IMG/VR virus record: IMGVR_UViG_3300031772_000323
Location: 1 to 22,040 of that record
Length of the DNA: 22,040 bases
From: a virus
Reading direction: 5' to 3' (one strand)
Part shown: positions 2,720 through 20,681 of the stretch, piece by piece
How the letters are laid out: the number at the start of each line of letters is the position of its first letter
Position numbering within the stretch: position 1 is the stretch's first letter
Program-made: the position numbers and the translations under genes
The notes under the pieces: generated by a model
The model's database searches: none
What the model saw: the letters and a program-made list of their open reading frames with translations, nothing else
What the model was told of the DNA's origin: nothing

Positions 2720-3292
2720 ATGGGGTACCACGCAACTATTTCTAAGGAGTGTATAGAGTTCATTAAACAGCAGGCAAAGCAGGGAATCAAATTCACACAG
2801 ATAATGAAACTATGTAAAGAGAACGGCAATAACGTAACCTACATGCAGGTATGCTACCATGGGGGGAAAGTCTACTCACAGAAGAAGAAAAAGATGATAG
2901 AACTAAATTTTATAGAGTCAACGACCACTCTATGCCAGGAGATGACAAGCTGGATAAGGATGTTGAGAAAAGAGTACGATGAGCTGCATCCAGACAGTCT
3001 GATTGACAGCATAGCAAGTCTAAGGGCAGATGGGCAGCTTTTAGTAGGGGAGCAAGAAAAGGCGGCCAGGGAGGAAGAGCTGAAGATAAGATTGAGAATG
3101 CTATCATTCCAGAGGGGGGACAAGAGGGATTTACGCTTTGCACTGAACAAGGGATTTGAGAACTTCGTCAATCTGTTAAAATCACCAGCCATACAAACAA
3201 CCCAGGTGAACATACTACAGCAACAATTAGAGCAGAGCTTAGGTGATATTATACATGACAGAACAACAGGCCCTATCAAAATCTCAAATTGA
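2720..3292 (+). CDS. Probable small terminase subunit (by context)
   Basis: The 190-residue protein lies directly upstream of, and overlaps by 38 bases, the large terminase gene. This is the usual place for TerS, which binds the viral packaging site and loads the TerL motor. The N-terminal 50 residues (ISKECIEFIKQQAKQG, then a second helical stretch) could be a helix-turn-helix DNA-binding domain. The middle is helical and charged (about 60-150), as in TerS oligomerisation domains, and the C-terminal tail is polar (QQQLEQ). No family-specific motif proves the assignment. There is no clear ribosome-binding site before the ATG at 2720. Confidence 0.55.
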   Translation: MGYHATISKECIEFIKQQAKQGIKFTQIMKLCKENGNNVTYMQVCYHGGKVYSQKKKKMIELNFIESTTTLCQEMTSWIRMLRKEYDELHPDSLIDSIASLRADGQLLVGEQEKAAREEELKIRLRMLSFQRGDKRDLRFALNKGFENFVNLLKSPAIQTTQVNILQQQLEQSLGDIIHDRTTGPIKISN

Positions 3293-4571
3293 GTCGGTAT
3301 GGAAAGACCCGATAGTCTTCTACAGGTTCCTGACAGGGAAGATACCAACAGAATACCAGGCTGATTTCCTGAGAGACAAATCTACACGCAAGTCATTCAG
3401 AAGCGGAAGAAGATGCGGCAAGACCGAGATTATAGCAGCAGATGCCCTATACAATGCAATAACCTATCCCAACGAGGAAATCCTACTATTAGGTCCATTT
3501 CAAGAACATGCCCAGATACTAATAGAAAGGGTATTTGACTTCATAGCCAACAATATGTTCATCCAGACTTTAATATCACATCAGACGCAGACAATGGTGT
3601 TCTTCAGGCATAATAATTCTAGGATATTAGCAAGGACGATAGGCAGGACTGGGTTGGGCGTGAGAGGTCGCTCACCAACAAGGATTTATATTGATGAGGC
3701 AGCATTCGTGCCAGACTCTGCATTTGTGGCTGTTGAGATGTGCCTAGCCACCATTGGCACCAGGTATCTTACTTATTCAAGCACACCCTTTGGAAAGAGG
3801 GGCAGGTTCTATATGTCGTGCACAGACCCCGAGTCTGTATTTTCCACGTATTACATCAACGCCGAGGACAGCCCGATAGTCAACAAGGATTTCTTAAAAG
3901 AACAGAAGAACATATTGACAGAATTAGAATACAAGCAGGAGGTACAAGGAGAATTTATAGAGGAAGCAGATGTGTTTATAACCAGAGATTTGTTCCTAAG
4001 CTGCTGTGAGGACATTGCTGACAAACTACAGTCAGATGCTGATAAGGATTATTTCTTGGGTGTTGATGTCGCTAGATTTGGTACAGATGAGACTGTGTTT
4101 ATGATAGCTGAAGTGACTTATGAAGGTCTATTAAGTATAGTACATATAGAGGCCACAAGCAATAAATCGCTCACAGACACAGCAGGAAGGATAATAAATT
4201 TAAATAGACAATTTAATTTTAAGAAGATATTTGTTGATGAGACTGGATTAGGTGGTGGAGCTGTAGACATGCTGCAGGAGCAGGATATCCCTGTCACGCC
4301 CATAACATTTACTCTGAGGGATAAGGCTGATATGTATCGTCATTTCAAATGGTGCTTTGAGAAGAAGATGATTAAAGTACCACCGAATGTCAAGCTGATG
4401 AAACAAACCATTAACCTGATGTACGAGTACTCTTCCACAGGCATATTGAGGATACACCACGTAGAAGAGTCAAGGGCTCATGACGACTATCCAGATGCAT
4501 GTGCTTTAGTATGCTTATCCATATTCAGGCCGAAGGAAGACACTGTGATAGACCTGGAGGTGGCAGAATGA
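3255..4571 (+). CDS. terL: Terminase large subunit (packaging ATPase and nuclease)
   Basis: TerL pumps viral DNA into the prohead and cuts the concatemer. Numbering from the ATG at 3255 (438 residues), the ATPase domain has Walker A GRRCGKT (51-57) and Walker B IYIDEA with Asp147 and catalytic Glu148 (144-149). The coupling motif TYSSTPFG follows at about 173-180. The RNase H-like nuclease domain has its first Asp at 271 (GVDVARFGTDET), a second acidic site at Asp328-Glu329 (FVDETGLGGG) and the C-terminal DDYPDA (410-415). The protein appears complete and of normal length. A GGTGAT ribosome-binding site at 3242-3247 favours this ATG over an upstream GTG at 3243. The gene lies between the probable small terminase and a small unknown gene that starts on its stop codon. 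Confidence 0.95.
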   Translation: MTEQQALSKSQIESVWKDPIVFYRFLTGKIPTEYQADFLRDKSTRKSFRSGRRCGKTEIIAADALYNAITYPNEEILLLGPFQEHAQILIERVFDFIANNMFIQTLISHQTQTMVFFRHNNSRILARTIGRTGLGVRGRSPTRIYIDEAAFVPDSAFVAVEMCLATIGTRYLTYSSTPFGKRGRFYMSCTDPESVFSTYYINAEDSPIVNKDFLKEQKNILTELEYKQEVQGEFIEEADVFITRDLFLSCCEDIADKLQSDADKDYFLGVDVARFGTDETVFMIAEVTYEGLLSIVHIEATSNKSLTDTAGRIINLNRQFNFKKIFVDETGLGGGAVDMLQEQDIPVTPITFTLRDKADMYRHFKWCFEKKMIKVPPNVKLMKQTINLMYEYSSTGILRIHHVEESRAHDDYPDACALVCLSIFRPKEDTVIDLEVAE

Positions 4572-5248: not shown

Positions 5249-6718
5249 ATGCCTACATTAAGAGAGAGGGTCAATGCTTTCATGCGACCCACAGCAGAAA
5301 GAGATACGTTTAGCTCTCTAAGTTATGATTATGCGATTACAGGACGCAGAGCATTGTTGCCTGAATGGTATTTCCAGGCACCGTATGGACAGCCAAGAAA
5401 GATAAATGCAGATGAGATTAGGGAATTAGCCAAGACCCCATTCATACAATTATGCACCACTACTATAATAGAAGACTTTGCTACGACGCCCTGGTTAATC
5501 GTACCGAAAAACAAGGACGAATTTGACCAGTCGCATGTCGACGAAGAGACATTTTTCTTAAATAATCCAAACTTGAACAAAGAAACACTGCCCGACCTGA
5601 TGAGGCAGTGGGCGAGGGATTTATTGGAACTGGACGCAGGGGTGTTCGTAAAAGTATTCGACGAGAGCAGCTATGAGACATCGGAATTTAGCACGGCAGA
5701 GCACAAGTATTACAAGTTTGGCGAGAAGGATGGACTGTTTAAATGCGATGTCGAAGTAAAAAAGAAAATGAAAAAATTAAATAAATCGCTAAAAGAAAAA
5801 GGTAAAAGGGTGCTTAAAGAGTTATATGTCAGGGATGGTACTACATTCTTGAAAGACGGTGACTACACAGGATTTGTGCATCGTTATTATCAGTATGCTT
5901 TTAAACTACCAAGAAGAGACCCTCAGATATTTGACAGGGATGAGATTGTCTATTCGATGAAATGCCCAAGGAGTTATTCGTTCTATGGTTGGTCCCCAAT
6001 TCAATCATTAGAGGATTTAGTCAGGGCATTGAAAGAGCAGATAATTTACCACTTAGCTTTTGCAAGGGAGAAGGGGGTGCCAGATGGGATATTATCCATC
6101 ATGGATATTTCGACTGTAGAATTAAACAGGTTAAGGGAATATTGGAAGAAGGAGATAAAAGGCAAGGCTCATAAGTTTGCTGTCATAGGCAGGGAGGCTA
6201 AGTTCACATCGACCCAGGTGACATCAAGGGACATGGAGATGTTATCAAGCCAGCAATGGTTTATGAAGATAATAATGGCTTGTTTTAATTTAAATGTCCC
6301 GATATTATCTTTGATAGGAGAAGCACCTAAAGCAGGTACTTGGGCTTTACAACAAAGAGAGAGACATAAAGCCATTTTACCGTTACTACAGTTATTTGAG
6401 AATGAGATGAACACGGAGATACTTTCTGAGTTTAATTATCCAGATGTTGAGTTTAAGTTCCAGACTTATGACTTAGAAGAAGACAAGATGAAGAGGGACA
6501 TGCAGATATCTGATTTGAATGTGGGAGTGACTACAATAAACGAAGTGAGGACAGAGGAGAGAGGGAAAGACCCTGTAGCTTGGGGTGATGAGCCATTCAG
6601 TCTAGGTATTCATGCTATGCAGACAGGTGGACTACCAATGACCCAAATGCCTAAATCATTAGAAAAAAACAAGCCTACTCTTGACGAATTTAAGAAGGTC
6701 ATAACAAAGGTGGATTGA
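5249..6718 (+). CDS. Portal protein (HK97/SPP1-type)
   Basis: The portal forms the dodecameric ring at the unique capsid vertex through which DNA enters and to which the neck attaches. The 489-residue protein has the expected length and position after the terminase. Portal-like features are the N-terminal clip (TPFIQLCTTTIIEDFATTPW near 64-83), the stem region with DRDEIVYSMK (about 230-239) and SFYGWSPIQSLEDLVRAL (about 244-261), then the conserved C-terminal part with LIGEAPKAGTWALQQ (about 357-371) followed by a long helix and INEVR before the end. The C-terminus is Lys-rich. Its TGA overlaps the next start as TGATG. No frameshift or truncation is visible. Confidence 0.85.
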   Translation: MPTLRERVNAFMRPTAERDTFSSLSYDYAITGRRALLPEWYFQAPYGQPRKINADEIRELAKTPFIQLCTTTIIEDFATTPWLIVPKNKDEFDQSHVDEETFFLNNPNLNKETLPDLMRQWARDLLELDAGVFVKVFDESSYETSEFSTAEHKYYKFGEKDGLFKCDVEVKKKMKKLNKSLKEKGKRVLKELYVRDGTTFLKDGDYTGFVHRYYQYAFKLPRRDPQIFDRDEIVYSMKCPRSYSFYGWSPIQSLEDLVRALKEQIIYHLAFAREKGVPDGILSIMDISTVELNRLREYWKKEIKGKAHKFAVIGREAKFTSTQVTSRDMEMLSSQQWFMKIIMACFNLNVPILSLIGEAPKAGTWALQQRERHKAILPLLQLFENEMNTEILSEFNYPDVEFKFQTYDLEEDKMKRDMQISDLNVGVTTINEVRTEERGKDPVAWGDEPFSLGIHAMQTGGLPMTQMPKSLEKNKPTLDEFKKVITKVD

Positions 6719-7260
6719 TGCCTGGAATAGATTATCCAATCACAGGAGTCATAAAAGACACTGACGAGTCCTTATTAGAAGGGGCTACAGTAAGGGTATG
6801 CAATATAAAGACCGCTGAAGTACTGTCGGCAACTACAGAATCAGATGGAAGTTATTCGGTCACATTCACAACATATTCAAATAAGGATTTTATTGTCGTT
6901 GAGGCAAGAAAGGCAATCTCAGCTACGATGGAGAAGATAGGCATAGCTGTTACTGAGATAGATACAGGTGTTGCTGGGAAAGATGTCAATATCACAGTTA
7001 ATCTTAGAGTTGATTTAGGAATTGAAACACTTGTTTTAAGAGCCCCTCAGCAAGACAGGGACATAAGGATTTTCTCTCCAGAGTTCAATGCTATAAAGAC
7101 AGTCAATACAGGGTTTGATTGCAAGCAGGTCACACTTACAAAGAACAGCGATAATTATGTCACAGACATAGAAGAGTCGGATGGCATACACATCAAGAAG
7201 ACAACATTCACCAGGGATTCTAACAATTATATAACAAGCATTGCGGAGAGGATTAAATGA
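6718..7260 (+). CDS. Transthyretin-like (carboxypeptidase regulatory-like) beta-sandwich protein
   Basis: The 180-residue protein begins with a transthyretin-like domain: YPITGVIKDTDESLLEGATV (about 6-25), then the typical S-D-G-S-Y-S-V turn (about residues 42-48) and an FIVVEARK strand. The second half is also beta-rich and contains two related stretches of the form TLTKNSDNYVTDI and TFTRDSNNYITSI. Such domains in viral virion genes usually decorate capsids or tails. There is no signal peptide, unlike the next large genes, so it probably stays in the cytoplasm and joins the virion. It starts at the ATG of a TGATG overlap with the portal stop, with GGTGG at 6709-6713. A similar protein lies at 19869. 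Confidence 0.7.
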   Translation: MPGIDYPITGVIKDTDESLLEGATVRVCNIKTAEVLSATTESDGSYSVTFTTYSNKDFIVVEARKAISATMEKIGIAVTEIDTGVAGKDVNITVNLRVDLGIETLVLRAPQQDRDIRIFSPEFNAIKTVNTGFDCKQVTLTKNSDNYVTDIEESDGIHIKKTTFTRDSNNYITSIAERIK

Positions 7261-7403
7261 ATGTTGCAGAGCATATTAAAACCCACATTGTGCTTGGATT
7301 AGATTTTAGATTTCCTGCAGAGGGAAATACTTATTTCAAGTTTTCGGCTACGAAGGTAGAATTGTATATAGACGGTGTATTAAAATTAGAGTGGACATCT
7401 TAA
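7257..7403 (+). CDS. Short beta-rich protein, probably real
   Basis: A 48-codon frame starts in an ATGA overlap with the preceding stop and fills the space before the next gene, overlapping it by 13 bases. The product starts MNVAEHIKTH and ends in KVELYIDGVLKLEW, a strand-turn-strand pattern that often ends tail or decoration domains. The coupling to the upstream gene and the clean fit in the gap support it as a gene. It could be a detached C-terminal domain of the preceding beta-sandwich protein, or a small decoration protein. No named family is recognised. Confidence 0.6.
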   Translation: MNVAEHIKTHIVLGLDFRFPAEGNTYFKFSATKVELYIDGVLKLEWTS

Positions 7404-9367
7404 AATTGACGATATTGTTATCATTTTTATTAATTATAAGTACTGTCTATGCTACCCAGACTATCTACGATAATGTCAATATAACAGGAAGCATAACAGG
7501 TGGTGGATTAAAGGTCGCTAGTTGTGATATAAAAGCGTCTATTAATGGGACCTTGTATTGTGGTACTGATTTAGCAGGTAGTGGTGGTAATACAACTGCT
7601 GAGATGAGGACTGCAGTTAATCAAAGCCTCTACTATAATTTCACATCCAATTCAACGACCTGGTGGGCAAATGTAAATGATTGGACTTCAGGTTATTTTA
7701 TAAAATCAGTAAATAGTCTGGATTTCAACGAGACGAAATTAAACAATACTATAGATGACAGGTTGACTTCATTCACATTTTATCCGATTACAAACAGGAC
7801 AATCTATGGGACAGAGACAGGAGGGAACAATATAGGTAATTTAAGTTACTATGATGGACAGTCTTTTAATGTCACTGAGATAGCTGGAAGCAATCCGTTG
7901 GAAGTCAGGATTAATTTCACTGGGATAGTTACATTTGATAATATCCTAATAAGGGAAAGATATGATGGGGGGAGTGGACATGAGATAGATGTCGAACTGT
8001 GGAACTATGTGGATGGTATTTGGGACAATTATTTTGAGATAACAGACCAATCACAGCTTACTCAATTACCAGCAATACCAGTTCCGGACTCTACAGAACA
8101 CATAAGCGGTAATGTCGTGATGTTAAGGTTCAATCATGTAACCACTCCAGGAAACACACAGCATAAATTCTACATTGATTATGTCCAACTAATAGATGGG
8201 ACTTCTACATTGACAAACATAGCACATGACAGCCTAAGCGGTAGGGATAACATCTGCATCAACCATCCATGGATTTGTATTTATTATTTGAACACTTCGC
8301 AGGTGGTCGGTTTCAATTACTGGAACTTCACATGGTCGGGGTTCAACAAGACCTACGCAGACACCTTATACATCGGTGTGGGAAATGCGACTATAACATC
8401 ATTGAAGAATTATATGAATGCCAATGTATCATCCATCTCAAATAACAGTCTGTTTTTCAATGGACTAGGTACAGGTTATTTTCAAAATGGAACAGAGACA
8501 GATACTGCGAATACTACTACCCAGATGAGAGATGCACTAAACCAATCATTATATTATAATTTTACTTCAAATAGGACTTTGTACATAGACTGTACTGGTA
8601 TCTATGGTGGGAGTGATGCTGACTTTTGTGCAGATGCTACAGGTGGTGGAGGTGGTGTCAATTACTTGCAAGTTAGTGGTGTCTGGATGTGGAACAATGC
8701 TACATCGGGAGGACAGCCAAATATAAATTTCACAAAAGTAAACGCTACTACTTTTTATGAGGATGGTGTATCATTAATTAACAAATATGTGAGCGTAGGG
8801 AATGTTACTATCAACGCTGCTACTATAGATGGTTATGATTCTGCATTCTTCATGCCTTTGAACGTATCAGGACTTAATACTGCTTGGACAAGTAAGTTGG
8901 GTTTTGGTAACATCACAGACTATAATCTTGACGTTACATGGAGAAACAAGTTAGAATGGGGCAACATATCAAATGACCCACAGTACAATGCTACAGTAAA
9001 TACCTTTATAACTAAAAATGTTTCTTCTATTGCAAATAATAGTTTGTTCTTTGGTGGCTATCCAACAGGGTTTTATTTAAATGGTACGGATATAGATACA
9101 GCTAACACTACTGCTCAGATGAGGAACGCTATCAATCAGACGTTGTACTATAACATCACAGTCAACGACACAAAGAACTATTTCGGTGGGTACCCGACTG
9201 GATTTTATCAGAATGGTACTGAGGTAGCTAATACTTCGACACAAATTGTCAATGTGTTTAATACAACAGGATTGCAGGTCAACGACGATGTTAAAATCTA
9301 CTTCGGTACTGACCGGGACGTCTTCATCCAATACAACACGACCGCAAGTGCAGGCCAGTTAGGGTGA
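7391..9367 (+). CDS. Exported, heavily sequon-rich protein with tail-fibre-like repeats
   Basis: The 658-residue product begins with a signal peptide (a Lys, then a hydrophobic run to about residue 20, and VYA before TQT). By eye it has about 40 N-x-S/T sequons, roughly one per 16 residues. The unit NNSLFFxGxxTGxxxNGT occurs at about 352-369 and 551-568, with a partial third copy near 597, and QMRxAxNQxLYYN occurs three times (about 70, 378 and 575). The G-x-x-T-G-(F/Y) turns resemble the short repeats of phage tail fibres, and the end (DVKIYFGTDRDVFIQYNTT) resembles a motif common near fibre C-termini. A jelly-roll-like region spans about 130-270. The GTG start at 7391 is the first that gives the signal peptide. 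Receptor-binding spike or virus-encoded surface glycoprotein are both possible. Confidence 0.75.
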   Translation: MDILKLTILLSFLLIISTVYATQTIYDNVNITGSITGGGLKVASCDIKASINGTLYCGTDLAGSGGNTTAEMRTAVNQSLYYNFTSNSTTWWANVNDWTSGYFIKSVNSLDFNETKLNNTIDDRLTSFTFYPITNRTIYGTETGGNNIGNLSYYDGQSFNVTEIAGSNPLEVRINFTGIVTFDNILIRERYDGGSGHEIDVELWNYVDGIWDNYFEITDQSQLTQLPAIPVPDSTEHISGNVVMLRFNHVTTPGNTQHKFYIDYVQLIDGTSTLTNIAHDSLSGRDNICINHPWICIYYLNTSQVVGFNYWNFTWSGFNKTYADTLYIGVGNATITSLKNYMNANVSSISNNSLFFNGLGTGYFQNGTETDTANTTTQMRDALNQSLYYNFTSNRTLYIDCTGIYGGSDADFCADATGGGGGVNYLQVSGVWMWNNATSGGQPNINFTKVNATTFYEDGVSLINKYVSVGNVTINAATIDGYDSAFFMPLNVSGLNTAWTSKLGFGNITDYNLDVTWRNKLEWGNISNDPQYNATVNTFITKNVSSIANNSLFFGGYPTGFYLNGTDIDTANTTAQMRNAINQTLYYNITVNDTKNYFGGYPTGFYQNGTEVANTSTQIVNVFNTTGLQVNDDVKIYFGTDRDVFIQYNTTASAGQLG

Positions 9368-9373
9368 TTGTTA

Positions 9374-12073
9374 TTGGCTTACAAGAAGATTGTCTATTCA
9401 AGTGCTTTGGCGACAGTGGTTGCGGTATTAATCTACCTTTCATCTATTCCAGGCGTGAGAATAACAACCTCTGGTGACATAACCTGTTCTGTATGTACTT
9501 CTTACTTCAACATCACATCATCGAATTATAGTCTGAAGTTCTATAAATTCGACCAGAGATTGACATTCTCTCCAGAAATAAAGAATTATACTCTCTACAG
9601 ATACACCTACGGAAAATGGAGAGAGACGAAATTCCCTATAAACATGACCAAAGGGACTTTGTATAGGTTCAAATTAGTAGGTTATAAATTCAATCCTAGT
9701 GATAAAATAAAATGGGCTATATCTTCAGGAGATGCAGAGATAGACCCATATTGGTTGGGTGAAAAGGAAGTCAAACTAGCCAGTACAATCTACCATCCAG
9801 ACTATGACGAGGAAGTCTATTCAGACGGCTCAATTAAATGGTCTTTCATAGGTCAGGGATTAAGGAATGTTTGGGAAGACAACAGATGGAAGAGGGCAGA
9901 AGATGCAAGAAGCTGGAAGGACTACTTAGGCTACATAGAAAAGATATACCTAGAAAAAGACCCTGACTTTGACATGGACATCATAGACATCAATGCCACT
10001 TTTGCTGAACTGAACCTTACTTTCAATCCAATCAGCAACATAACGGAATTAAAGGAAAGATATCCAGAATGCGGGGCATCAAAGACAAACGACATAAAGT
10101 GCGACTTCAAACTAACTGTGAAAGAAGAAAATGGGACTGAAACAAAGTTCCAGTACAAATATCAGGAAAAGAATGGTATAAAGGAAGACTTGAAGTATGT
10201 CTTAAAAGGAAATCCTTTTGACAAGGAATACACCTTTGGCGGTAATTCTACGACAATCAAGTTCAACAACGGTAATGTGACTGACGACACGCACCTCTAT
10301 CAAAAGGGGCAAGGAGGAGATTATGGAGCAGATGATGATTTGGTCGCAGCAGGAGTTGCGACAACATTGAACTTTCCCATAGTAAAGATAAAATGGAATG
10401 GGAATATGCCAGCAAATCAGGAAATACTAGATGCTCAGTTGGCTTTGTATGTTGAAGCTGAATTACTTGACACAGGCGAGTCATGGAACTATGATGCCAA
10501 GCATGTTTACGACAGGACTAAATATAATATATCTGGTTCTGAATGGACTGAAGGTGGCTCCACTGCAACAGCAGGTTGTGCTGAGATTGGGGGAGCAACA
10601 ACAGGCTCAGAGATAAACTGGACATATGCTCCTAATGAACCAAATATAGAATATAATGATACTTATGAAACTAGGAAAACAGATGCTGCTGCTGGTAGTT
10701 CAAGCGTGTGGTATAACTGGACTATCACTAACATGGTTCAAAAGGAATATATGGCTGGTCGTTCCAATATAACCGTACTTCTTAATGTATCAATTGGTGC
10801 TGGTACTCCTGCAAATACAGACTGCGTATATTTTACTTCGGCTGAAGGGACAAACAAGCCTTATCTCAACATAACATTCCAGCCAGATTTAAATCCACCA
10901 ACTTGGAGCTTGAACCAGACAAACTCTACAGTCGCAGGAAGCTGGGTCAAGCATTCTTTAAACTGGACAGATACGGCACAAGGCGGAATAACTCCAGGAC
11001 TGAGCGGTTATATATTCAGCTTCTGCAACGGGACTTGGAACGGGACTGATTGCGGCCATTATGAAAATGTGACACATATATTAGCTATAGGTGCGGGTAA
11101 TGTCAGCAATGTCAAGTCATTTAAAGCTTCTAGTAATACATATCCACTAGCTACATTGGCAGGTGGAACTGAATTATCAGCCAGTGATTATAGTGCTGTG
11201 AACTCAAGCAATGATGTTAGAGCAACCCAAGCAACAGGAACAGGTTATGATTTTCCCTACTTTAAATTCAATTTCACATTACCATCCTATAATAAAGTCT
11301 TTTGGATAAACTTTAGTGTTGAGGGGCAGTCGGAGATTACTGATATGGACTGGTATATTTATTTTTGGAATTTCTCAGGCAGTTCATGGGAACAAAAATT
11401 GTATTTTGATGTACCAGTTGCAGCCACTGATTATACGGTAAAATACAACGAGACAAACAGCCTAAATATTAGCGACACTATAGAATCAGATTTGAGAACC
11501 ATTACAATATTATTTATTGGGGATGACGATAGTGGGACTGGATATGATATTGTAGTGGATTATGCCTATCTTACGGTTATGTACAACAGTTCGGATTTCA
11601 TAACAGATTTCGTAAACGACACATTAGTAGCATTCAATTCAAACACATGGTCTAATGCATCTAAAGTTGTCAATTCAACAACTGGTGCACATATGGCTTG
11701 GAGGGTCTATGCAAATGATACATCAAACAATTGGAACACTTCGAGTGTGTTTACTTATGATACGACTGCTGGAGAAACGACAACATCAACAACTACAACA
11801 TCGACCACTTCAACATCAACGACAGTACCAGCAGACTCTTGCACGCCTCCTGCTGATGCAGAATGGGTGTTGACTGACCAGTGCGTGAAAGAGACTTCTG
11901 TAAACAACTGTCCTTACGGTACTAATATAACTTCTACAGGTTCACTTAACATGTCAGGTTCAGGCGTCATTCTCAACACAAGTCATATTTATTGGTCTCC
12001 TATCTCTGCAGGTTACTATTTCAGGTTACTATGGGAGAAGGGGGCTAAGATATATTGGGGGTGGTGTACGTGA
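9374..12073 (+). CDS. Large exported multi-domain surface-type glycoprotein
   Basis: The 899-residue protein has a basic N-terminus and a hydrophobic segment (about 7-25), a CxxC at 38-41, then a region ending GDAEIDPYWLG (near 120-130). A DNRLRE-like beta domain spans about 290-505 (LDAQLALYVEA, NMVQKEY, VYFTSAEGTNKPYLNITF). An Ig-like segment follows (about 507-570), then a beta-rich segment to about 745, a Thr/Ser linker at about 800-820, and a Cys-containing C-terminal domain. Sequons are frequent throughout. This is the architecture of archaeal S-layer or adhesin-type proteins. The start is the TTG at 9374, six bases after GGTGA (9363-9367); a TTG at 9368 is too close to that site. It follows the repeat protein directly and is coupled to a membrane protein downstream. 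Confidence 0.75.
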   Translation: MAYKKIVYSSALATVVAVLIYLSSIPGVRITTSGDITCSVCTSYFNITSSNYSLKFYKFDQRLTFSPEIKNYTLYRYTYGKWRETKFPINMTKGTLYRFKLVGYKFNPSDKIKWAISSGDAEIDPYWLGEKEVKLASTIYHPDYDEEVYSDGSIKWSFIGQGLRNVWEDNRWKRAEDARSWKDYLGYIEKIYLEKDPDFDMDIIDINATFAELNLTFNPISNITELKERYPECGASKTNDIKCDFKLTVKEENGTETKFQYKYQEKNGIKEDLKYVLKGNPFDKEYTFGGNSTTIKFNNGNVTDDTHLYQKGQGGDYGADDDLVAAGVATTLNFPIVKIKWNGNMPANQEILDAQLALYVEAELLDTGESWNYDAKHVYDRTKYNISGSEWTEGGSTATAGCAEIGGATTGSEINWTYAPNEPNIEYNDTYETRKTDAAAGSSSVWYNWTITNMVQKEYMAGRSNITVLLNVSIGAGTPANTDCVYFTSAEGTNKPYLNITFQPDLNPPTWSLNQTNSTVAGSWVKHSLNWTDTAQGGITPGLSGYIFSFCNGTWNGTDCGHYENVTHILAIGAGNVSNVKSFKASSNTYPLATLAGGTELSASDYSAVNSSNDVRATQATGTGYDFPYFKFNFTLPSYNKVFWINFSVEGQSEITDMDWYIYFWNFSGSSWEQKLYFDVPVAATDYTVKYNETNSLNISDTIESDLRTITILFIGDDDSGTGYDIVVDYAYLTVMYNSSDFITDFVNDTLVAFNSNTWSNASKVVNSTTGAHMAWRVYANDTSNNWNTSSVFTYDTTAGETTTSTTTTSTTSTSTTVPADSCTPPADAEWVLTDQCVKETSVNNCPYGTNITSTGSLNMSGSGVILNTSHIYWSPISAGYYFRLLWEKGAKIYWGWCT

Positions 12074-12306
12074 AGATTAGATTAGATAAGATGAAATTAT
12101 ATGCTGTAATTGTGACTGTTTTATTAATAGCAATAGTTGTTTACTTCGTAGGTATAAAAGAAATGAACAATTATTGCAGCAGTTGCAGACAGCAAGGATT
12201 TGATAATGCCTTAAAAGGAATAATAAATGAAGTTAAAAATAGGCAAACAGGCATTGAGATGACAGTAGGAAATGATAAGTTAATTTGTACCGTGAGAGGT
12301 GTTTAA
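12070..12306 (+). CDS. Small single-pass membrane protein with CxxC
   Basis: The 78-residue protein has a basic N-terminus (KIRLDKMK), one membrane helix (about residues 10-29) and a soluble C-terminal part with a CSSC motif at about 36-39 and a further Cys near the end. I chose the GTG at 12070 because it overlaps the preceding TGA (GTGA) and has GGTGGTG at 12061-12066. Being coupled to the large exported protein upstream, it may partner with it in the membrane or assist disulfide formation; this is speculation. The first codons contain GATTAGATTAGA, close to the leader repeats at 2706 and 13863. Confidence 0.65.
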   Translation: MKIRLDKMKLYAVIVTVLLIAIVVYFVGIKEMNNYCSSCRQQGFDNALKGIINEVKNRQTGIEMTVGNDKLICTVRGV

Positions 12307-13254
12307 GTGCCAAGAATATCGTTAGATTTCGATGGATTTATTAATCTGGAGAACAGGCTTAAGTTGCAGACGTTTTATGTAGAGACGCCAAAAGACTTTA
12401 CAATCTTTATGCTTTTAGAGGGGCAGGTGTTCTACACTACAATGACAATGGAAGAGATACAACTGAGGTTCGGCAGGTCTGCATATGTGGTAGAGCTGTT
12501 CAAAGCAACGTATATAAGGGACGGGATAAAGGTCAAGACTCTAGAGACGACTACAGAGATAATAAAGGATGTAAATATTGAGACAACAAACCTGAAAGAG
12601 ATTCTAGATAATTTTCTACATAGTTTTGAGAAAATAACAACTACAGCATCAGGGGGGCAAGGCACGGCAGGATATGCCATGATACCAGTGAGGATGAGTG
12701 ACGGGAAGCCAAAAAGATGCATGGACTGCGGGAATATAATATTGTCAAATGAGACAGTATGCCCATCATGTGGCTCATATAACATCAAAGAGAAAGACGT
12801 GGAACTGGATACGAAAAAGTGGGTAGGGTTCGATTTTACGGGTGATATTAAATATATGTTGGAGTTTTTAGAAAAGTATGATTTTGCTCGTATAACAACA
12901 TTGGACAAGAAACAAAAAAAGACAATAAAACAGATGTTGATAGACAGTCTTATTCAGGGATGGAATATGAATAAACTAGAAAGCGAAATAGAGACAGTTA
13001 CTAAAGATGAAAATTTAGCTAGAGTTATAGCAAGGACAGAAATAATGGTAGTTGCGAACCAAGGTGCTATCTTACACTACGAAGATAAGGGAATTGAAAA
13101 GGTTCGTTGGATAGCAGTACCTTCAGCACCAGGTGGTCGTACTTGTGACAAATGTTTATCGTTACACGGGAAGGAATTTTTAATAAAAGACATAAAAGAC
13201 AAACTTGTAATCCATCCATACTGTAGATGTACAATCGCCCCTGTTGTCGAATAA
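12307..13254 (+). CDS. Head morphogenesis protein, SPP1 gp7/MuF-like, with internal zinc ribbon
   Basis: The C-terminal part is the diagnostic region: ARTEIMVVANQGAILHYEDKG (242-262), KVRWIA, then RTCDKC (278-283) and HPYCRC at 303-308. Proteins of this family bind the portal and are packaged in small numbers in the capsid; some are ejected with the DNA. The N-terminal 110 residues are not recognised. Residues 116-128 read GGQGTAGYAMIPV, closely matching the major capsid protein at 130-142. They are followed by a zinc ribbon (Cys138, 141, 152, 155) that is not usual for the family. The GTG at 12307 directly follows the upstream stop, with GAGGTG before it. The gene is complete and is the last of the portal unit. 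Confidence 0.85.
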   Translation: MPRISLDFDGFINLENRLKLQTFYVETPKDFTIFMLLEGQVFYTTMTMEEIQLRFGRSAYVVELFKATYIRDGIKVKTLETTTEIIKDVNIETTNLKEILDNFLHSFEKITTTASGGQGTAGYAMIPVRMSDGKPKRCMDCGNIILSNETVCPSCGSYNIKEKDVELDTKKWVGFDFTGDIKYMLEFLEKYDFARITTLDKKQKKTIKQMLIDSLIQGWNMNKLESEIETVTKDENLARVIARTEIMVVANQGAILHYEDKGIEKVRWIAVPSAPGGRTCDKCLSLHGKEFLIKDIKDKLVIHPYCRCTIAPVVE

Positions 13255-13292: not shown

Positions 13293-13823
13293 ATGGAACT
13301 TAGAGATTTTAGAGGTAGATTTGTTAAAGGAAGTAAAATGCCTAAAGATTATATAGAACGAAGAATAAAATCGAGAGAAGGTTATAGACATTCTGAAGAT
13401 ACAAAGAGGAAGATAAGAAAAACTAATAGTGGAAAATGTTATTCTCCCCAAACATGTTTTAAGAAAGGGCATAAAACATTAAAAGGAATAGAAAAAGGAC
13501 AATTTAAGAAAGGCCAAAATATAGGTCATATCCCTTATGGGGGATTTGAAACAAGATTTAAAAATGGGATTCTGCACCCCAACTGGAAGAATGGAAGTTC
13601 ATTTGAACCCTATGGATTAGAATTCAATAAAAAATTAAGAGAAGAAATTAGAAAGAGAGATAATCATATCTGTCAAAGATGTGGCATTAAGGAAAATGGG
13701 GAAAAATTAGCCGTACACCATATAGATTTCAACAAGAAGAATAGCGTGCCAGAAAATTTGATAAGTCTGTGTAATAGTTGTCATTCTTTTATAACAACAA
13801 ACAAAATAATAAAAAGTAATTGA
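13293..13823 (+). CDS. Free-standing HNH endonuclease with NUMOD3-like motifs
   Basis: The 176-residue protein has short DNA-binding repeats in its N-terminal half: RGRFVKGS, HSEDTKRKIRKTNSG (the NUMOD3 pattern, about 33-47), FKKGHKT and GQFKKGQN. The C-terminal half is an HNH nuclease: RKRDNHICQRCG with CxxC (about 120-131), AVHHIDFNKKN (about 139-149), and LISLCNSCH (about 155-164) supplying the second CxxC and final His. Such enzymes cut DNA at a specific site and often spread as homing endonucleases. It sits alone between two morphogenesis units with its own promoter, is AT- and Lys-rich unlike its neighbours, and has no intron or intein nearby. It is therefore probably a mobile insertion. 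An HNH packaging role is less likely given the NUMOD motifs and position. Confidence 0.88.
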   Translation: MELRDFRGRFVKGSKMPKDYIERRIKSREGYRHSEDTKRKIRKTNSGKCYSPQTCFKKGHKTLKGIEKGQFKKGQNIGHIPYGGFETRFKNGILHPNWKNGSSFEPYGLEFNKKLREEIRKRDNHICQRCGIKENGEKLAVHHIDFNKKNSVPENLISLCNSCHSFITTNKIIKSN

Positions 13824-13907: not shown

Positions 13908-14834
13908 ATGTTTGAAAAATTTGAGCATACTTTTGATATAAAGTCTATCGACAAAGAAAAAAGAATAATCCGTGGCATTGCATCCTTAGAGGAGGTCGAT
14001 AGGGATAAAGAGATTATTGCCTTAGAAGCAATAGAAAAGAGTCTTGAAGGTTACAAGCAAAATCCTATCATAAGGTTTAAACATCAAGAACCAATAGGAA
14101 GGGCTATTCCTGAGCAGACATTCGTCGACAGGATGGACAAAGCCTTTATAGTGACGGCTTACATAACAGACAAGACACAAACAGGCAAGGAGGCATGGGC
14201 ATTGATTGAAGAGGGCATAATCAAGTCATTCAGCATAGGCGGGAAAGTACTAGAGAAAGAGGCGGTGAAAGAAAATGGCAGAGAGATAACTAAAATAACT
14301 AGCATGGAATTATATGAAGTATCGGTCGTTGACATCCCTTCCAACAGGAAATCATTCTTCGAGGTCATAGCAAAGTCAATAGGGAAACAATCAAAAGATG
14401 AAATCGCACAAGACATGTTCAACAAGCCTTATTCTGAACTGACGCCCGAAGAGAAGGAGAAAGTTGACGCTAAGTCAAAACCTGAAGAGAAGACTATTAT
14501 CCAAGATTTAAACAAGCCTGGTGCAGGCACTCATTCAGCTAAGTGGGACAGGTGCGTAGAGCATGTGAGAGCAAGCGGTGGTGTAGATAGCCCAGAAGCA
14601 GTATGTACTGCACAATTAGGTGAAGAAAGTTTTAATCGTTCTGTGGATTTGCCACCCGAAGAAATAAAAGAAATTGATTCCTTTGTCAAAAAATTAAATT
14701 CATACTTATTAGAAAATAAACTCGGCAAGATGACAAGCACGATTGACGAGCCTAAAAATAAAATGGAGGAAGAACAATGTCAGAAGAAGTTAAAATTGAA
14801 ACAAAAACTATTGACCCAGTTGAAGCAGAACTAA
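13908..14834 (+). CDS. Prohead protease (HK97 gp4-like, U35 family)
   Basis: This protease is encapsidated with the prohead and removes the scaffold domain of the capsid protein during maturation. Numbered from the ATG at 13908 (308 residues), the protease domain spans about 1-155: IRGIASLEEVDRD (21-33), catalytic His59 in RFKHQEPIG, catalytic Ser109 in IKSFSIGG, and the ELYEVSVVDIPSN strand with Glu137. After a Lys/Glu-rich linker comes a compact motif, SAKWDRCVEHVRASGG to AVCTAQLGEESF (about 210-242), which I have seen on other phage head proteins. The in-frame GTG at 13893 is less likely because GGTGG (13892-13896) would then be inside the gene. The 3' end overlaps the capsid gene by 58 bases. 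Confidence 0.85.
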   Translation: MFEKFEHTFDIKSIDKEKRIIRGIASLEEVDRDKEIIALEAIEKSLEGYKQNPIIRFKHQEPIGRAIPEQTFVDRMDKAFIVTAYITDKTQTGKEAWALIEEGIIKSFSIGGKVLEKEAVKENGREITKITSMELYEVSVVDIPSNRKSFFEVIAKSIGKQSKDEIAQDMFNKPYSELTPEEKEKVDAKSKPEEKTIIQDLNKPGAGTHSAKWDRCVEHVRASGGVDSPEAVCTAQLGEESFNRSVDLPPEEIKEIDSFVKKLNSYLLENKLGKMTSTIDEPKNKMEEEQCQKKLKLKQKLLTQLKQN

Positions 14835-15994
14835 AGACCGAAGTAGAGAAGATGGTTTCTACAAGAATCGCTGAAGAGATGGAGAAATTCAAAAAGGAGA
14901 CTCCAGTCTACAAGATGATAAAAGAAGACACAGAGGGCGAGAAAGTCGAGACAAAGGAGGCAGAACCAACAATAGCAAAGTTTGCTATTAGTTACGGGCC
15001 TTACGACAGGCAGGAGGCATTAACTAAAGTCTTACCAGAATCTAGTCCAGCAGGTAATGAATATTATGGTGGAATAATGAATCCATCCATAGATAAGAGA
15101 GCTGGTGGAACAAGATTCAAACAAGCTTTAGAAGATTTCCATAAATACACATACACACAGACAGGCGGTGCTGGTACAGCAGGTTATGCTTTGATACCAG
15201 TCTATGTCGACCCAGATATAATCGATAGAACGAGAAGAGAGATTCCGTTCATCGAGATGTTGCCAAGAAGGGCTACTCAAGGTTTGACATACGACTACAA
15301 CGCAATAACCACATTGACAAACGCAGTCACCCTAAATGAAGACGCTTCATTAGACGATTTGACTGATGTTTACGACAGATTGAGTGTAAACATGACATAC
15401 ATTTATTCAACAGGAAGAGTAACAGGACCAACAATAGCAGCAAGAAAGGGTTATGTTGACGCTTTGAACCTGGAAGTCCAGAATAGGACGATAGCTTTGA
15501 AGAGATACGAAGACCAGTTGTGCTTACAATCCACATCAACAAGCCCTGAGATGAGTTCATTGACGGAACTAATCGTAACGGGAGCCAATGAGACAGCATT
15601 AGGTGGGCCTTTGACAATATTAGCGATAAGAACAGAATTAGCCCAATGTAGAGATGCAGGCGGTGTTACTAACCTAATCGTCTTGACTAATACATTATCT
15701 AACTCATTGAAGGGTTTGATGATGGATTACCAGAGATGGGTTGATACTACCAAGATTGCATGGGGCATTGAGACGATGAGTTTCGACGGAATACCAGTGA
15801 TAGTTGACAGATACTGTCCATCAGGATATGTGTTGTTAATAGATATGTCAGTTGTTTTCATGGCTGTGTTGCAAGACATAGTCTATGAGGAATTGGCTAA
15901 GGCAAACGACTCAGTTAAATTCACACTAAAGGCATACGAAGCGATAGTCTGTAGAGCGCCAGATTTTTGTTCTATCTTGACAGGGTGTACCTAA
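14777..15994 (+). CDS. Major capsid protein (HK97 fold)
   Basis: The 405-residue protein follows the prohead protease and has GGAGG eight bases before its ATG. Residues 1-60 are charged and helical, like an HK97 delta (scaffold) domain. The mature-like part starts around the Gly-rich GGAGTAGYALIPV (130-142), followed by DPDIIDRTRREIPFIEMLPRR (145-165), which matches the N-arm and the start of the spine helix. Further family features are the LSVNMTYIYSTGRVTGPT strands (about 206-223), a long helix with a conserved pattern, the P-domain segment GIPVIVDRYCPSG near 345-357, and a beta-rich C-terminus. The protein is complete. The scaffold should be removed between about 110 and 130 by the protease encoded just upstream. 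Confidence 0.88.
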   Translation: MSEEVKIETKTIDPVEAELKTEVEKMVSTRIAEEMEKFKKETPVYKMIKEDTEGEKVETKEAEPTIAKFAISYGPYDRQEALTKVLPESSPAGNEYYGGIMNPSIDKRAGGTRFKQALEDFHKYTYTQTGGAGTAGYALIPVYVDPDIIDRTRREIPFIEMLPRRATQGLTYDYNAITTLTNAVTLNEDASLDDLTDVYDRLSVNMTYIYSTGRVTGPTIAARKGYVDALNLEVQNRTIALKRYEDQLCLQSTSTSPEMSSLTELIVTGANETALGGPLTILAIRTELAQCRDAGGVTNLIVLTNTLSNSLKGLMMDYQRWVDTTKIAWGIETMSFDGIPVIVDRYCPSGYVLLIDMSVVFMAVLQDIVYEELAKANDSVKFTLKAYEAIVCRAPDFCSILTGCT

Positions 15995-16285
15995 ATGGGA
16001 GAAGACATCTCATCAACGTGTACCTACAAAAGGTACATTCCAGGTAGACTCCTAAAGATAGAGACAGTCGCTACTGCAGACGATACCGATACAATAATCC
16101 TAACATTAGCCGATTATGGTATTTCCACAATCGAATCGATATTAGGGTTTACACATTCAACTACAGATAGCATAGTAATAACACAAGCACCAACAACTTC
16201 AGTAACGTCAGGAGTTTTAACCATAACAGTGGGCGGAAGCACAGACGACAAGAAGAGAGTATTTTTAGTATTCGGAGACTCTTAG
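15995..16285 (+). CDS. Small beta-rich structural protein, paralogue A
   Basis: The 96-residue protein starts at an ATG directly after the capsid stop, with GGGTG at 15983-15987. It is beta-rich and polar, with the landmarks STCTY, LKIET, TLADYG, HSTTDSI, APTTSV, SGVLTITVGG and KKRVFLVFG in order. The next gene is a paralogue of the same length, about two-thirds identical by eye. A small beta-protein encoded right after the capsid gene is typically a decoration or capsid-stabilising protein, expected in many copies, but no named family is recognised. Confidence 0.75.
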   Translation: MGEDISSTCTYKRYIPGRLLKIETVATADDTDTIILTLADYGISTIESILGFTHSTTDSIVITQAPTTSVTSGVLTITVGGSTDDKKRVFLVFGDS

Positions 16286-16293
16286 GTGATATC

Positions 16294-16584
16294 ATGGGAG
16301 CAATAACAAGTACTTGCACATATACCAGAATAATACCTGGTAAATGGTTAAAGATAGAGACACCAGCCACAGCAGTCACAGATGATACTATTGTCTTGAC
16401 ACTTGCCGATTATGGCATGGCGACACTTGAAGCGATAGTTGGATTTAATCATTCAACAACTGATAGCATAATAATAACAGAAGCACCTACGACAGCAGTA
16501 GCAAGCGGGGTATTGACAATTACAGTAGGCGGAACAGCATCGACAAAAAAGAGAGTATATTGGGTCTTTGGAGAATCGCCTTAA
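16294..16584 (+). CDS. Small beta-rich structural protein, paralogue B
   Basis: This 96-residue protein repeats the whole of the preceding one: STCTY, LKIET, TLADYG, HSTTDSI, APTTAV, SGVLTITVGG and KKRVYWVFG all recur at the same positions. It is preceded by AGGTGAT (16285-16291) close to its ATG. The substitutions spread over the gene rather than cluster, so the duplication is not recent. The two copies could form hetero-oligomers or occupy different capsid positions. It is the last gene of the capsid unit. Confidence 0.75.
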   Translation: MGAITSTCTYTRIIPGKWLKIETPATAVTDDTIVLTLADYGMATLEAIVGFNHSTTDSIIITEAPTTAVASGVLTITVGGTASTKKRVYWVFGESP

Positions 16585-16983: not shown

Positions 16984-17253
16984 GTGAAGAAGTATAAAAA
17001 TGTTAGTGGGAAGGATATAGGGTTTATAATAGACGGCAAAACCTACGACTTCCAGAATGGGCAAATAGTCGCTGTACCCGAAGGAATAAAAGAGAGAGTG
17101 GACTACCTAATTTCTAAAATTGTTCCTGTAGAAGAGGCTGTTGTTCCAGTTGTACCAATTATTATAAAACCTAAGATAGAACCTTTTAATATAGAACCTA
17201 AAATAGAAACAGTCGTGGCTAAACCTAAAAAGAAATCGGTGAAAAAGAAATGA
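16984..17253 (+). CDS. Small structural-type protein with basic Pro/Lys tail
   Basis: The 89-residue protein has a compact N-terminal beta domain (KKYKNVSGKDIGFIIDGKTY, then IVAVPEGIKERVDYLIS), which resembles small decoration or joining domains seen in phage head clusters. It is followed by a long Pro/Val/Ile/Lys tail ending KKKSVKKK. The tail could contact DNA or acidic partners. I chose the GTG at 16984 because GGAGG (16972-16976) sits seven bases upstream; the ATG at 16951 would put that site inside the gene. The stop overlaps the next start (ATGA at 17250-17253). Confidence 0.6.
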   Translation: MKKYKNVSGKDIGFIIDGKTYDFQNGQIVAVPEGIKERVDYLISKIVPVEEAVVPVVPIIIKPKIEPFNIEPKIETVVAKPKKKSVKKK

Positions 17254-19151
17254 AGAAAATATTAATATTACCATTGATTGCATTGATGTTTATTGTTTGT
17301 AGCATGGGTATTGCTTCAGCACATGTTGGGCATGACAATATCTCTGTCACATTTGATTTCCCTAAAAATGGTAGCACCCTTTTAAACAATACTTGGACTA
17401 CTCAAAGGTTCAATATAACATTGAACGAAAGTGTTAACAAATCATGTGAAGCAGAATTTAATTCTAATGGCACATGGATTGAAATGACAGCTACTGCCGC
17501 TACGAATGTGTCCTATTATTTTGATTTTACAAGTTCTACGTTGACTGGTGATTGGCAAGCTGTCATATACAGGTGCGGTAATGTAACTGGGTTTAAATCA
17601 TATTCTAATTTTACAGATTCTGTTCTTTATTATAAATTAAGTAATGCTGTATTGGCGCCTTTAAATCGCGCTTTCCTTAACAATAGTATAATAGCTAGGA
17701 ACGAAGCGTTAAACGTAACTACAGGTAGTTTAAATGCGTCCAACTGCACGTATCAGCTAGACGGAGGAGTGGGCAGGGTTTGGTTAAATCAAACAGGGCT
17801 TATGACAAGGACAGGTGGCTGGCAATGGTGGACAAACACATCTGAAATGGCTTTGTCGAATACTACTTTTGGAACAAATCCAGGCACTTATCATAATATA
17901 ACATTCAATTGTTCAAACTCTATCGGTACGTGGTATTCTTCAGATACAATCTTCTTCAAAGTTGATGCTATCCAACCTACCATATTATATTCAGGGATGG
18001 CTTATACTTTAGGCAACGCAACGACTGGAGGCAATTATCTAAATGTCACTTTTAACATAACAGATAACAATCCAAGCAGGTGCTATCTTAAATTGAGATG
18101 GGGCAGTGATAATTCCTTTAAGAACGTATCGTCCTGGCTTACTTATGACCCGACTCAATATATAACAAGTTCGACTAATAATACCGCAAACGGTGTCTGT
18201 AAGGTCAGCATATTACCAACGGATGTGACAAAAGATGGTTATGTAGAAGTCGTACCTTCTGCACAAGACGAAGCAGGTAATGGCAATTCGACTACTCTTT
18301 GGAACCAGTCTTATATATTTTACAGGATGAAAACAGGTTGGAATTTGGTAGCAGGATTTGAAAACAAGTCTTTGACAGCAATAGGTAATGAATTCAAGAA
18401 TGTAACTTATGTCAGTGTATGGGACAATCTGGCTAATATGAAGAACTTTACAACTTGGACATTCGGTGGTTCTACTAATGGAGCTACTATAGTCAATTTC
18501 TCAACAACTCAAGGCAGTGGCGGTACTTACATCTATGTCTCGGCAGACATAGTTTCAATAAGAAGGTATTATGATATGCCTGTAGGTTGGTCCAATGTCT
18601 CATTATATTCAAATACATCTGTAGGCAAGACTACCTGGAACATGGTCGCTATCAACAGGAACATAACAAACATAAATGCTTCTTTGTTCAGCAACGTGGC
18701 TTGTACAAATCTTACTTATGAAATAACAAACCAATCAATTAATTTTGCAGCCAATGACACCGACTATGCATTAGGTTACTATGCGTTGAGCATCATATCA
18801 ATAAAGAATCGTACACATATTTTCTACAGCAGCAATTACACTGGCGGGAGTAACTGGACCGTATCGACAAACTTATCCTATATAAGGATAAACGTAGACG
18901 GTGGGAATATAATAGGGGTTTACAATGTCAGTTACATAGGGTCATTGAACTTGGTACGTGCCTGTAACAACATAACATGGGTGAGCTGGTATAACGTCCA
19001 GTTAGGCAAGCCTTGTTCATTCTTTAGGAACAGACTGGCTACATCATGCCCAGGTTATCTGTCAAATAGCATATCTGTAGACAGAGGAGATGCAATCTGG
19101 ATAGCTATCCAGAATGGTGTAAATATAACTTTCGATAGGAGCAAATGGTGA
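17250..19151 (+). CDS. Exported, sequon-rich surface-type protein
   Basis: The 633-residue protein has a clear signal peptide (MKKILILPLIALMF, with ASA at 22-24 before HVGHD). The mature part is a string of Ig-like beta domains (for example PKNGSTLLNNT near 38-48, DAIQPTILYSG near 240, DEAGNGN near 345), followed by a region beginning TGWNLVAGFENKSL (about 364) with many Trp and Asn residues. N-x-S/T sequons are very frequent. The pattern is that of archaeal cell-surface glycoproteins. No C-terminal membrane anchor is present; it ends TFDRSKW. The start overlaps the preceding TGA, with GGTGA at 17239-17243. It lies inside the virion unit, directly before a membrane-anchored exported protein that could hold it at the surface. 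Confidence 0.75.
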   Translation: MKKILILPLIALMFIVCSMGIASAHVGHDNISVTFDFPKNGSTLLNNTWTTQRFNITLNESVNKSCEAEFNSNGTWIEMTATAATNVSYYFDFTSSTLTGDWQAVIYRCGNVTGFKSYSNFTDSVLYYKLSNAVLAPLNRAFLNNSIIARNEALNVTTGSLNASNCTYQLDGGVGRVWLNQTGLMTRTGGWQWWTNTSEMALSNTTFGTNPGTYHNITFNCSNSIGTWYSSDTIFFKVDAIQPTILYSGMAYTLGNATTGGNYLNVTFNITDNNPSRCYLKLRWGSDNSFKNVSSWLTYDPTQYITSSTNNTANGVCKVSILPTDVTKDGYVEVVPSAQDEAGNGNSTTLWNQSYIFYRMKTGWNLVAGFENKSLTAIGNEFKNVTYVSVWDNLANMKNFTTWTFGGSTNGATIVNFSTTQGSGGTYIYVSADIVSIRRYYDMPVGWSNVSLYSNTSVGKTTWNMVAINRNITNINASLFSNVACTNLTYEITNQSINFAANDTDYALGYYALSIISIKNRTHIFYSSNYTGGSNWTVSTNLSYIRINVDGGNIIGVYNVSYIGSLNLVRACNNITWVSWYNVQLGKPCSFFRNRLATSCPGYLSNSISVDRGDAIWIAIQNGVNITFDRSKW

Positions 19152-19155
19152 TGAA

Positions 19156-19866
19156 ATGAAGAGAATGATTCCGATAATAATGATTTTATTAAGTCTAGCT
19201 GCAGTAACAGCAGTAGACCCTTGCCCGTTTGCATTCAGTTTTATTACTTCACCCCCTGATGCAAATGTGGGATTGACAGTCCAGTTAAAATATGGCGACA
19301 GGACATGGATTGTGCCAGAAGGTTATCCTGGAGAATATGTGACAGATTTAGGTGGGATAGAACCTCCAATAGCAAATTGCATATATCAGAATTTTGAACT
19401 GACAGTAAAAGATTGCGAAGCTAATTCGGTCTGCCATTCTACAGTCTCTTTTAACCCCCAAGGATATACAACTTTAGACATAAGTTCTGCCAATCTATTC
19501 AAGCAGACTACAACGTCTTCTACAATCGAACCAACAACTACAACTGAACCAACAACGACAATACCAATTACTACGACTGTAACTGAAGAATGTGAAGAGT
19601 GTGAAGTATGCCCTGATGAGACAATAAATTATTTAGTAACAGGAATAACAGCAGCAATAGCTTCAGCAGGGTTGACGTATGCTTATGGATTAAAAATACG
19701 AAAACCCGTATCTGGTGGACCTGTAGACGAACATATGCATCCTGGAATTGTAAATTATCATTCTATTAACACAGTTCATACAAATCTAAAGATAAGGCAC
19801 CCAAAAGGTATGGTAGCACCGAAATATGAAAAGATAGGTACCGAATGGAAATATAAAGGGGTTTGA
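19156..19866 (+). CDS. Type I membrane protein: exported domain, Thr-rich stalk, His-rich cytoplasmic tail
   Basis: The 236-residue protein is built from a signal peptide (about 1-19, cut near TAVDP) and an exported domain with cysteines at 23, 75, 87 and 93 (two possible disulfides). A Thr/Pro stalk follows (about 117-142), then CEECEVC (146-152), a membrane helix (about 159-177), and a tail of about 57 residues starting with basic residues. The tail has a His-rich stretch, HMHPGIVNYHSINTVH then IRHPKG (193-218). The topology places the tail in the cytoplasm, where it could contact virion or host components. The stalk and Cys cluster are typical of archaeal surface proteins. GGTGA at 19147-19151 serves the ATG at 19156. 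Function unknown; docking factor or anchor for the upstream exported protein are ideas only. Confidence 0.7.
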   Translation: MKRMIPIIMILLSLAAVTAVDPCPFAFSFITSPPDANVGLTVQLKYGDRTWIVPEGYPGEYVTDLGGIEPPIANCIYQNFELTVKDCEANSVCHSTVSFNPQGYTTLDISSANLFKQTTTSSTIEPTTTTEPTTTIPITTTVTEECEECEVCPDETINYLVTGITAAIASAGLTYAYGLKIRKPVSGGPVDEHMHPGIVNYHSINTVHTNLKIRHPKGMVAPKYEKIGTEWKYKGV

Positions 19867-20423: not shown

Positions 20424-20681
20424 ATGCCCGAAGACTTGCCGTTTGATAAAAAGAAAGACAATCCTCATGTAAGCATCGGAACATGCAATGCAAGACATGC
20501 AAATGTCGATGCAAATCTGAATAAAATACTTGAAGTCCTAAGGGGGGATGAAAAAACAAATTATGGGATAATCGGCGACTTGAGGGATATAAAAAGAGAC
20601 AAAAGATGGACATACGCTATAATAATATCGTTTATAATCCCTGTAGTATTCCTATTGATTAACTATGCGATGAGGGGGTAA
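20424..20681 (+). CDS. XhlA-like small membrane protein (holin-accessory type)
   Basis: The 85-residue protein has a polar N-terminus, an amphipathic helix around HANVDANLNKILEVLRGDEK (25-44), a GDLRDIKRDKRW stretch (51-62) and one C-terminal membrane helix (about 63-82). This order, charged helix then terminal membrane span, resembles haemolysin XhlA-type and related phage proteins placed near holins. The similarity is of layout, and the family call is tentative. It begins at the ATG directly after the upstream stop, without a strong ribosome-binding site, so it may depend on reinitiation. If it is part of lysis, it is separated from the head genes' usual order. Confidence 0.55.
   Translation: MPEDLPFDKKKDNPHVSIGTCNARHANVDANLNKILEVLRGDEKTNYGIIGDLRDIKRDKRWTYAIIISFIIPVVFLLINYAMRG
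20672..20678 (+). promoter_or_regulatory. Ribosome-binding site without a canonical start codon behind it
   Basis: GAGGGGG at 20672-20678, inside the end of the XhlA-like gene, is a strong Shine-Dalgarno-like sequence. The only start-like codon at normal distance in the connector frame is the ATA at 20684, five bases downstream; no ATG, GTG or TTG in that frame occurs before 20717. Confidence 0.45.

Follow-up and report, generated by a model that had tools for sequence, protein, structure and literature searches.

What could secreted, sequon-packed proteins be doing among the assembly genes of a tailed virus? Tailed viruses are the standard example of particles put together wholly in the cytoplasm, and their fibres normally lack signal peptides. 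The question is raised by the window, an entire IMG/VR record of 22,040 bp, in which two consecutive plus-strand genes are bordered on the left by a portal gene (5249-6718, plus strand; Pfam Phage_portal, 3.5e-27) and on the right by a MuF-type head morphogenesis gene (12307-13254, plus strand; Pfam, 8.5e-13). The original prediction had placed ORFs of 658 and 899 residues between portal and head morphogenesis genes, and both are real. S1 (7391-9367) is a predicted exported, fibre-type protein of 658 residues that begins at a GTG codon at 7391. S2 (9368-12073) is a predicted membrane-anchored, adhesin-type protein of 901 or 899 residues, depending on whether the TTG at 9368 or that at 9374 is used; the latter agrees with the start in a 95%-identical relative. 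Upstream of the pair lies a signal-less, clade-conserved Ig/CarboxypepD_reg-like protein of 181 residues (6715-7260, plus strand). The window also encodes a large terminase, an S78 prohead protease, and an SU10/HK97-type major capsid protein (MCP; 14777-15994, plus strand), the last followed by a pair of paralogues of 96 aa each, more small genes, two exported proteins, and genes for a connector and a neck protein.

The MCP served to place the virus. Among cultured viruses, the haloarchaeal siphoviruses HCTV-2 and HHTV-2 come nearest by this protein (23-25% identity over 63-65% of the MCP), and the host is therefore likely an archaeon. These members of the Saparoviridae have the same order of portal, MuF, protease, SU10-like MCP, connector, and tape measure, but the MCP is only about 24% identical and a close genome-wide relation was not found. 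An MCP profile recovered 54 viral loci, hereafter the MCP-related set, and within species genomes it matched one Bacteroidia bin contig and a contig of a Nanoarchaeota MAG (L072; 35%) on which no chromosomal flank was visible. IMG/VR contigs are fragments, and the absence of a gene from them is weak evidence.

Judged by gene order, S1 and S2 are viral genes, and this is well supported. G003 and G004, whose portals are about 62% identical to that of the window at the amino acid level, have the same succession of portal, 181-aa Ig-like protein, exported S1, and S2; in G003 it runs on into the small membrane protein and MuF, and G001 and G002 retain the downstream part. The S1-S2 pair is also present in the distant G005. 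Among the other MCP relatives whose contigs carry both portal and protease, the majority have these two genes almost side by side, and the portal-side slot is therefore a feature of a few lineages: the window clade, G005, L034, and L058. Unrelated host genes flanked by insertion boundaries, named beforehand as grounds for abandoning the idea, were thus not what was found: the pair occupies a slot conserved among syntenic viral relatives. The 35-kb G002, which is without S1 and S2, has no large signal-less fibre candidate in its gene listing.

The pair also appears to have moved between viruses. Between the window virus and G005, S1 matches over 983 bp at 87% DNA identity (63% in protein) and S2 over 397 bp at 90% (95% across the first 129 residues, then divergence), whereas the capsid proteins are only 29% identical. 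This disparity points, with good support, to S1 and S2 having been swapped like host-interaction genes, and module exchange of this kind is a usual mark of genes whose products contact the host. S1 is a mosaic, its first ~55 residues resembling G003 and G004 and its middle G005. In S2 the first ~130 residues are constant, the remainder is exchangeable, and a T-rich linker lies near the C-terminus; the N-terminal anchor is common to S2 and to the relatives' S4-type proteins, and the outer parts are variable (DUF2341, Kelch).

The assessment of export used hydrophobicity, charge, and the -3/-1 rules for cleavage sites, and it bore out the claim that both proteins begin with export signals. In each of them the N-terminal segment is the most hydrophobic 14-residue window, and its hydrophobicity was matched by only 2 (S1) and 8 (S2) of 5000 shuffles of the same residues. 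S1 carries a Sec-type cleavable signal with an AxA-type site (cleavage between VYA and TQ); S2 has no such site, and its segment is predicted to be an uncleaved signal anchor, N-in and C-out by charge. Nor does the choice of start codon remove the signal, which had been proposed as a way for the idea to fail: the hydrophobic segment is kept with every near start codon of S1 and S2, and only the farthest downstream start tested for S2 (GTG at 9455) loses it.

The unit had been described as otherwise cytoplasmic, which does not hold. A third exported sequon-packed protein, S3 (17250-19151, plus strand; 633 residues), lies between the capsid and connector genes, and next to it is ss236 (19156-19866, plus strand), a signal-peptide membrane protein that accompanies S3 in every relative found. 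Small membrane proteins are encoded at 12055-12306 (sm83, plus strand; N-anchored, two cysteines behind the membrane segment, conserved after S2) and at 20424-20681. The exported genes thus fill two slots in the window (S1/S2 and S3/ss236); both the two additional exported genes and the recurrence of the arrangement across a lineage go beyond the original prediction. The layout of ss236 consists of a signal peptide, an ectodomain, a Cys/Thr-rich stalk, a membrane segment, and a His-rich inner tail, with no sequons. The spaced histidines of the inner tail are conserved (H.H...YH...H...H.KG), and the protein may connect the two sides of the membrane. In relatives, too, small membrane proteins whose cysteines are regularly spaced lie behind exported fibre genes (L034:6161-6445 and L072:13298-13741), as sm83 does behind S2.

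The second signature is the abundance of N-x-S/T sequons. About 40 had been estimated by eye in the first protein; the counts against the reversed motif S/T-x-N are 42:14 in S1, 39:15 in S2, and 44:16 in S3, as against 26:25 for the pooled remaining plus-strand proteins of the window. Shuffles of the same composition average 15.1 (S1) and 13.6 (S2) sequons, and the observed value was reached in 0 of 2000. The sequons are selected, not compositional. In most pairs of S3 homologues, sequon asparagines are retained more often than other asparagines. Among proteins of at least 200 aa in the MCP-related set, the ratio of N-x-S/T to reversed motif is 2.23 in 45 signal-bearing proteins (1110:497) and 1.11 in 324 signal-less ones (1163:1045), with a Fisher p of about 1e-24 for homologues that are not independent and with a contrast lowered by a few anchored proteins that fell in the signal-less class. 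Sequon enrichment therefore appears to track export across this set, and as signatures read from sequence, the export and N-glycosylation of S1 and S2 are well supported. By signal or anchor and by sequons, both proteins differ from conventional tail fibres, which are cytoplasmic and have no export signal. Repeats were considered as a source of the sequon count and set aside, with only three 63-nt copies in S1 and none in S2.

The principal new finding lies in the relatives: what looks like a docking domain is joined there to a fibre without a signal or is encoded apart from an exported body. The docking domain is a fibre N-terminal domain of ~75 aa with the motif WDDTK..DDF.SADWN.MVTDQK. Directly behind the connector gene lies either a signal-less fibre that starts with this domain, or the domain as a gene of its own with an exported protein next to it. 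Scanning with a profile yielded 28 viral loci, to which L072, from the Nanoarchaeota bin, was added. Fusion to a fibre lacking a signal occurs in 8 contigs, and in 18 of the 20 cases where the domain stands alone with a readable next gene, that gene encodes a fibre body with a strong signal; the fused cases lack an N-terminal signal by construction, and the informative part is that long separate bodies are always exported. The two exceptions, L109 and L111, have unrelated short genes next to the domain. Summed sequons follow the same division, at 484 vs 255 reversed in the 18 exported bodies and 76 vs 62 in the 8 fused fibres. Half of the docking domain resembles the N-terminus of a protein from the cultured Pseudomonas phage F10, whose gene lies between those for tape measure and tail fibre. 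Some of the exported proteins match fibre or related families. L040:15125, directly behind a stand-alone docking gene, is a direct homologue of the PHROG tail fiber family (phrog_5668; 6e-34), and L034:3336 has matches to YadA_head and to families of virion structural proteins and tail spikes. A domain of the exported L058:14453 is common to signal-less proteins of L066 and L064 (39% identity over 157 aa and 31% over 175 aa). The split docking domain and the fibre homology of some relatives are both well supported, and the split or fused state of the domain offers a direct genetic handle on the question of fibre export.

Does the window share this arrangement? Just before S1, a signal-less 48-aa ORF (7257-7403, plus strand) overlaps the S1 start by 13 nt and is a candidate cytoplasmic docking segment. 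Four viruses, namely the window virus, G003, G004, and G005, keep it immediately before S1 (E-values 9e-21, 2.5e-19, and 1e-4). The G005 copy, a 51-aa ORF followed by an exported S1, bears the motif FNPLSGQFD, which among the examined loci occurs near an N-terminus in only one other protein, a signal-less fibre-like protein of 1191 aa in the same slot of L064 (slot A, MuF-protease). No fused version of the window's own 48-aa ORF was found. Through this single motif and a short protein of 38% identity, the window seems to fit the split-fibre pattern.

The original prediction offered two roles, decoration of the host surface or spikes added at exit. The signatures on which both rest have stood, both roles are plausible, and the evidence leans to fibres because relatives split the docking domain from exported bodies and because L040 and L034 match fibre and spike families. 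We therefore rank first, tentatively, the reading in which S1 is a rerouted, glycosylated fibre body and S2 its anchored partner, with the fibre most likely joining virions as they leave. S1 would be the body of a tail-fibre-type adhesion protein, sent through the Sec system, N-glycosylated at the outer membrane face, and encoded apart from the 48-aa ORF, which would be its short docking segment in the cytoplasm. S2 would be its membrane-anchored glycosylated partner, with exchangeable domains. Both would be made late, together with the head and tail proteins, and would do their work on the exterior of the infected cell, where they touch host surfaces. Kept at the cell surface by anchored partners, the fibre would join virions at release and give them glycosylated receptor-binding fibres. 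That a whole archaeal tailed-virus lineage makes exported, glycosylated, surface-held bodies and virion-side docking segments, the halves joining at exit, is a bolder and more doubtful proposal. Should fibres be exported and glycosylated, then either attached at a later stage or put to use on the surface of the infected cell, the way in which receptors are bound and host range is set would differ from the usual one across a large share of archaeal viruses that is still uncultured.

Known systems resemble the window only in part. Like tail fibres and adhesins of Caudoviricetes, for which the hafunavirus adhesins served as comparison (PMC8651126), the proteins combine a fibre-like architecture, exchangeable domains, and a position in the head-tail module; they differ in the signal peptide or membrane anchor, the strong sequon selection, and the separately encoded docking segment. 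The fibre/LamG proteins of HCTV-2 and HHTV-2 are signal-less, unlike S1 and S2, and the long structural-module proteins checked in these two viruses have no signal and no comparable sequon excess. Sequon-bearing glycosylated proteins are likewise found in SSV1, SSV19, and the spikes of pleolipoviruses, but budding archaeal viruses are enveloped and exported spikes suit their assembly, whereas the window virus is of the non-enveloped tailed type. In HRTV-DL1, virion proteins are revealed by glycostaining (PMC10384203), and its candidate attachment protein has nine sequons, far below the 39-44 of S1, S2, and S3. In the open literature searched, no account of tail-fibre export by archaeal tailed viruses turned up, which is not proof of its absence. 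The streptococcal prophage proteins PblA and PblB are tail-type phage proteins that serve as adhesins on the cell surface, although their display comes after lysis, and we know of no Sec signal or N-glycosylation in them.

A cell-surface role comes close behind the exported-fibre reading. The exported, anchored glycoproteins may, with nearly as good a claim, coat or modify the infected-cell surface and never form part of virions, acting in superinfection exclusion, receptor masking, cell-cell adhesion that aids spread, or S-layer mimicry. The S2 and S4 types are anchored with their bulk outside, and for S2 itself the anchor favours display at the cell surface; an uncleaved anchor of this kind is unsuited to a naked virion. 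Relatives carry lectin-like or adhesin domains (DUF2341, 1.5e-19; Kelch, 1e-15; Laminin_G, 7e-38, with Laminin_G_3 in L033; BclA_C, 1e-9, in L039 and L053), several large copies occur per genome, and rapid exchange fits an arms race. S1 is also without a detectable fibre family match and without a fused counterpart of its 48-aa partner, which tells against a virion fibre: searches of S1 and S2 against Pfam, PHROGs, PDB, and phages by tblastn gave no match, homology to tail fibres being confined to L040 and L034, and AlphaFold2 models from alignments of 4-5 sequences were unusable (pLDDT 28). Exported fibres, moreover, could meet a non-enveloped tailed virion only at or after lysis, for which we know of no precedent. 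Against a purely surface role, the genes lie in the assembly module, in slots that relatives fill with fibre-like proteins lacking a signal, and the stand-alone docking domain, needless for pure surface proteins, is retained.

The remaining explanations fare much worse. Virion proteins with hydrophobic helices exist, and S1 and S2 might stay inside the cell with the helix as a virion part, for example membrane-active or fibre-anchoring, and with incidental sequons; this is improbable given the basic-hydrophobic-AxA layout in the S1, S3, and ss236 types, a directional N-x-S/T bias largely confined to signal-type N-termini, and the preferential conservation of S3 sequons. Programmed frameshifting could fuse docking and fibre ORFs so that part of the product is a conventional fibre, and in several loci the ORFs do share about 4-38 nt; such overlap is equally ordinary for coupled translation, the fused product would hold the hydrophobic signal internally, and we consider this very unlikely. 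Least probable of all is a recent capture or insertion of host surface-protein genes, since, for all that T-rich linkers and sequons are in the style of archaeal surface proteins, the slot is identical in several viruses, and 371 Nanoarchaeota genomes gave no match to S1 and one weak match, with in-frame stops, to the S2 domain.

Several further features of these viruses can be noted. The terminase of the window (3243-4571) has no match in G002, G003, and G004, whose portals are about 62% identical to its own, and appears to have been swapped. MuF and MCP have a 25-residue stretch in common (GG.GTAGYA.IPV, 64% identical), in relatives too. Behind the capsid gene, the 96-aa protein is in tandem duplicate (15995-16584; copies 71% identical, one copy in relatives) and is a candidate capsid decoration protein. 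The MuF-protease interval holds an HNH-like gene (13293-13823), and similar genes lie elsewhere in G001, G002, and G003. An exported viral protein of 1133 aa in L033 (9414-12812) matches calcineurin-like phosphoesterases besides Laminin_G_3 and is possibly an exported enzyme. Finally, the contigs of L011, L016, L017, and L015 end inside or beside S2/S4-type genes, as if these were too variable or too repeated to assemble.
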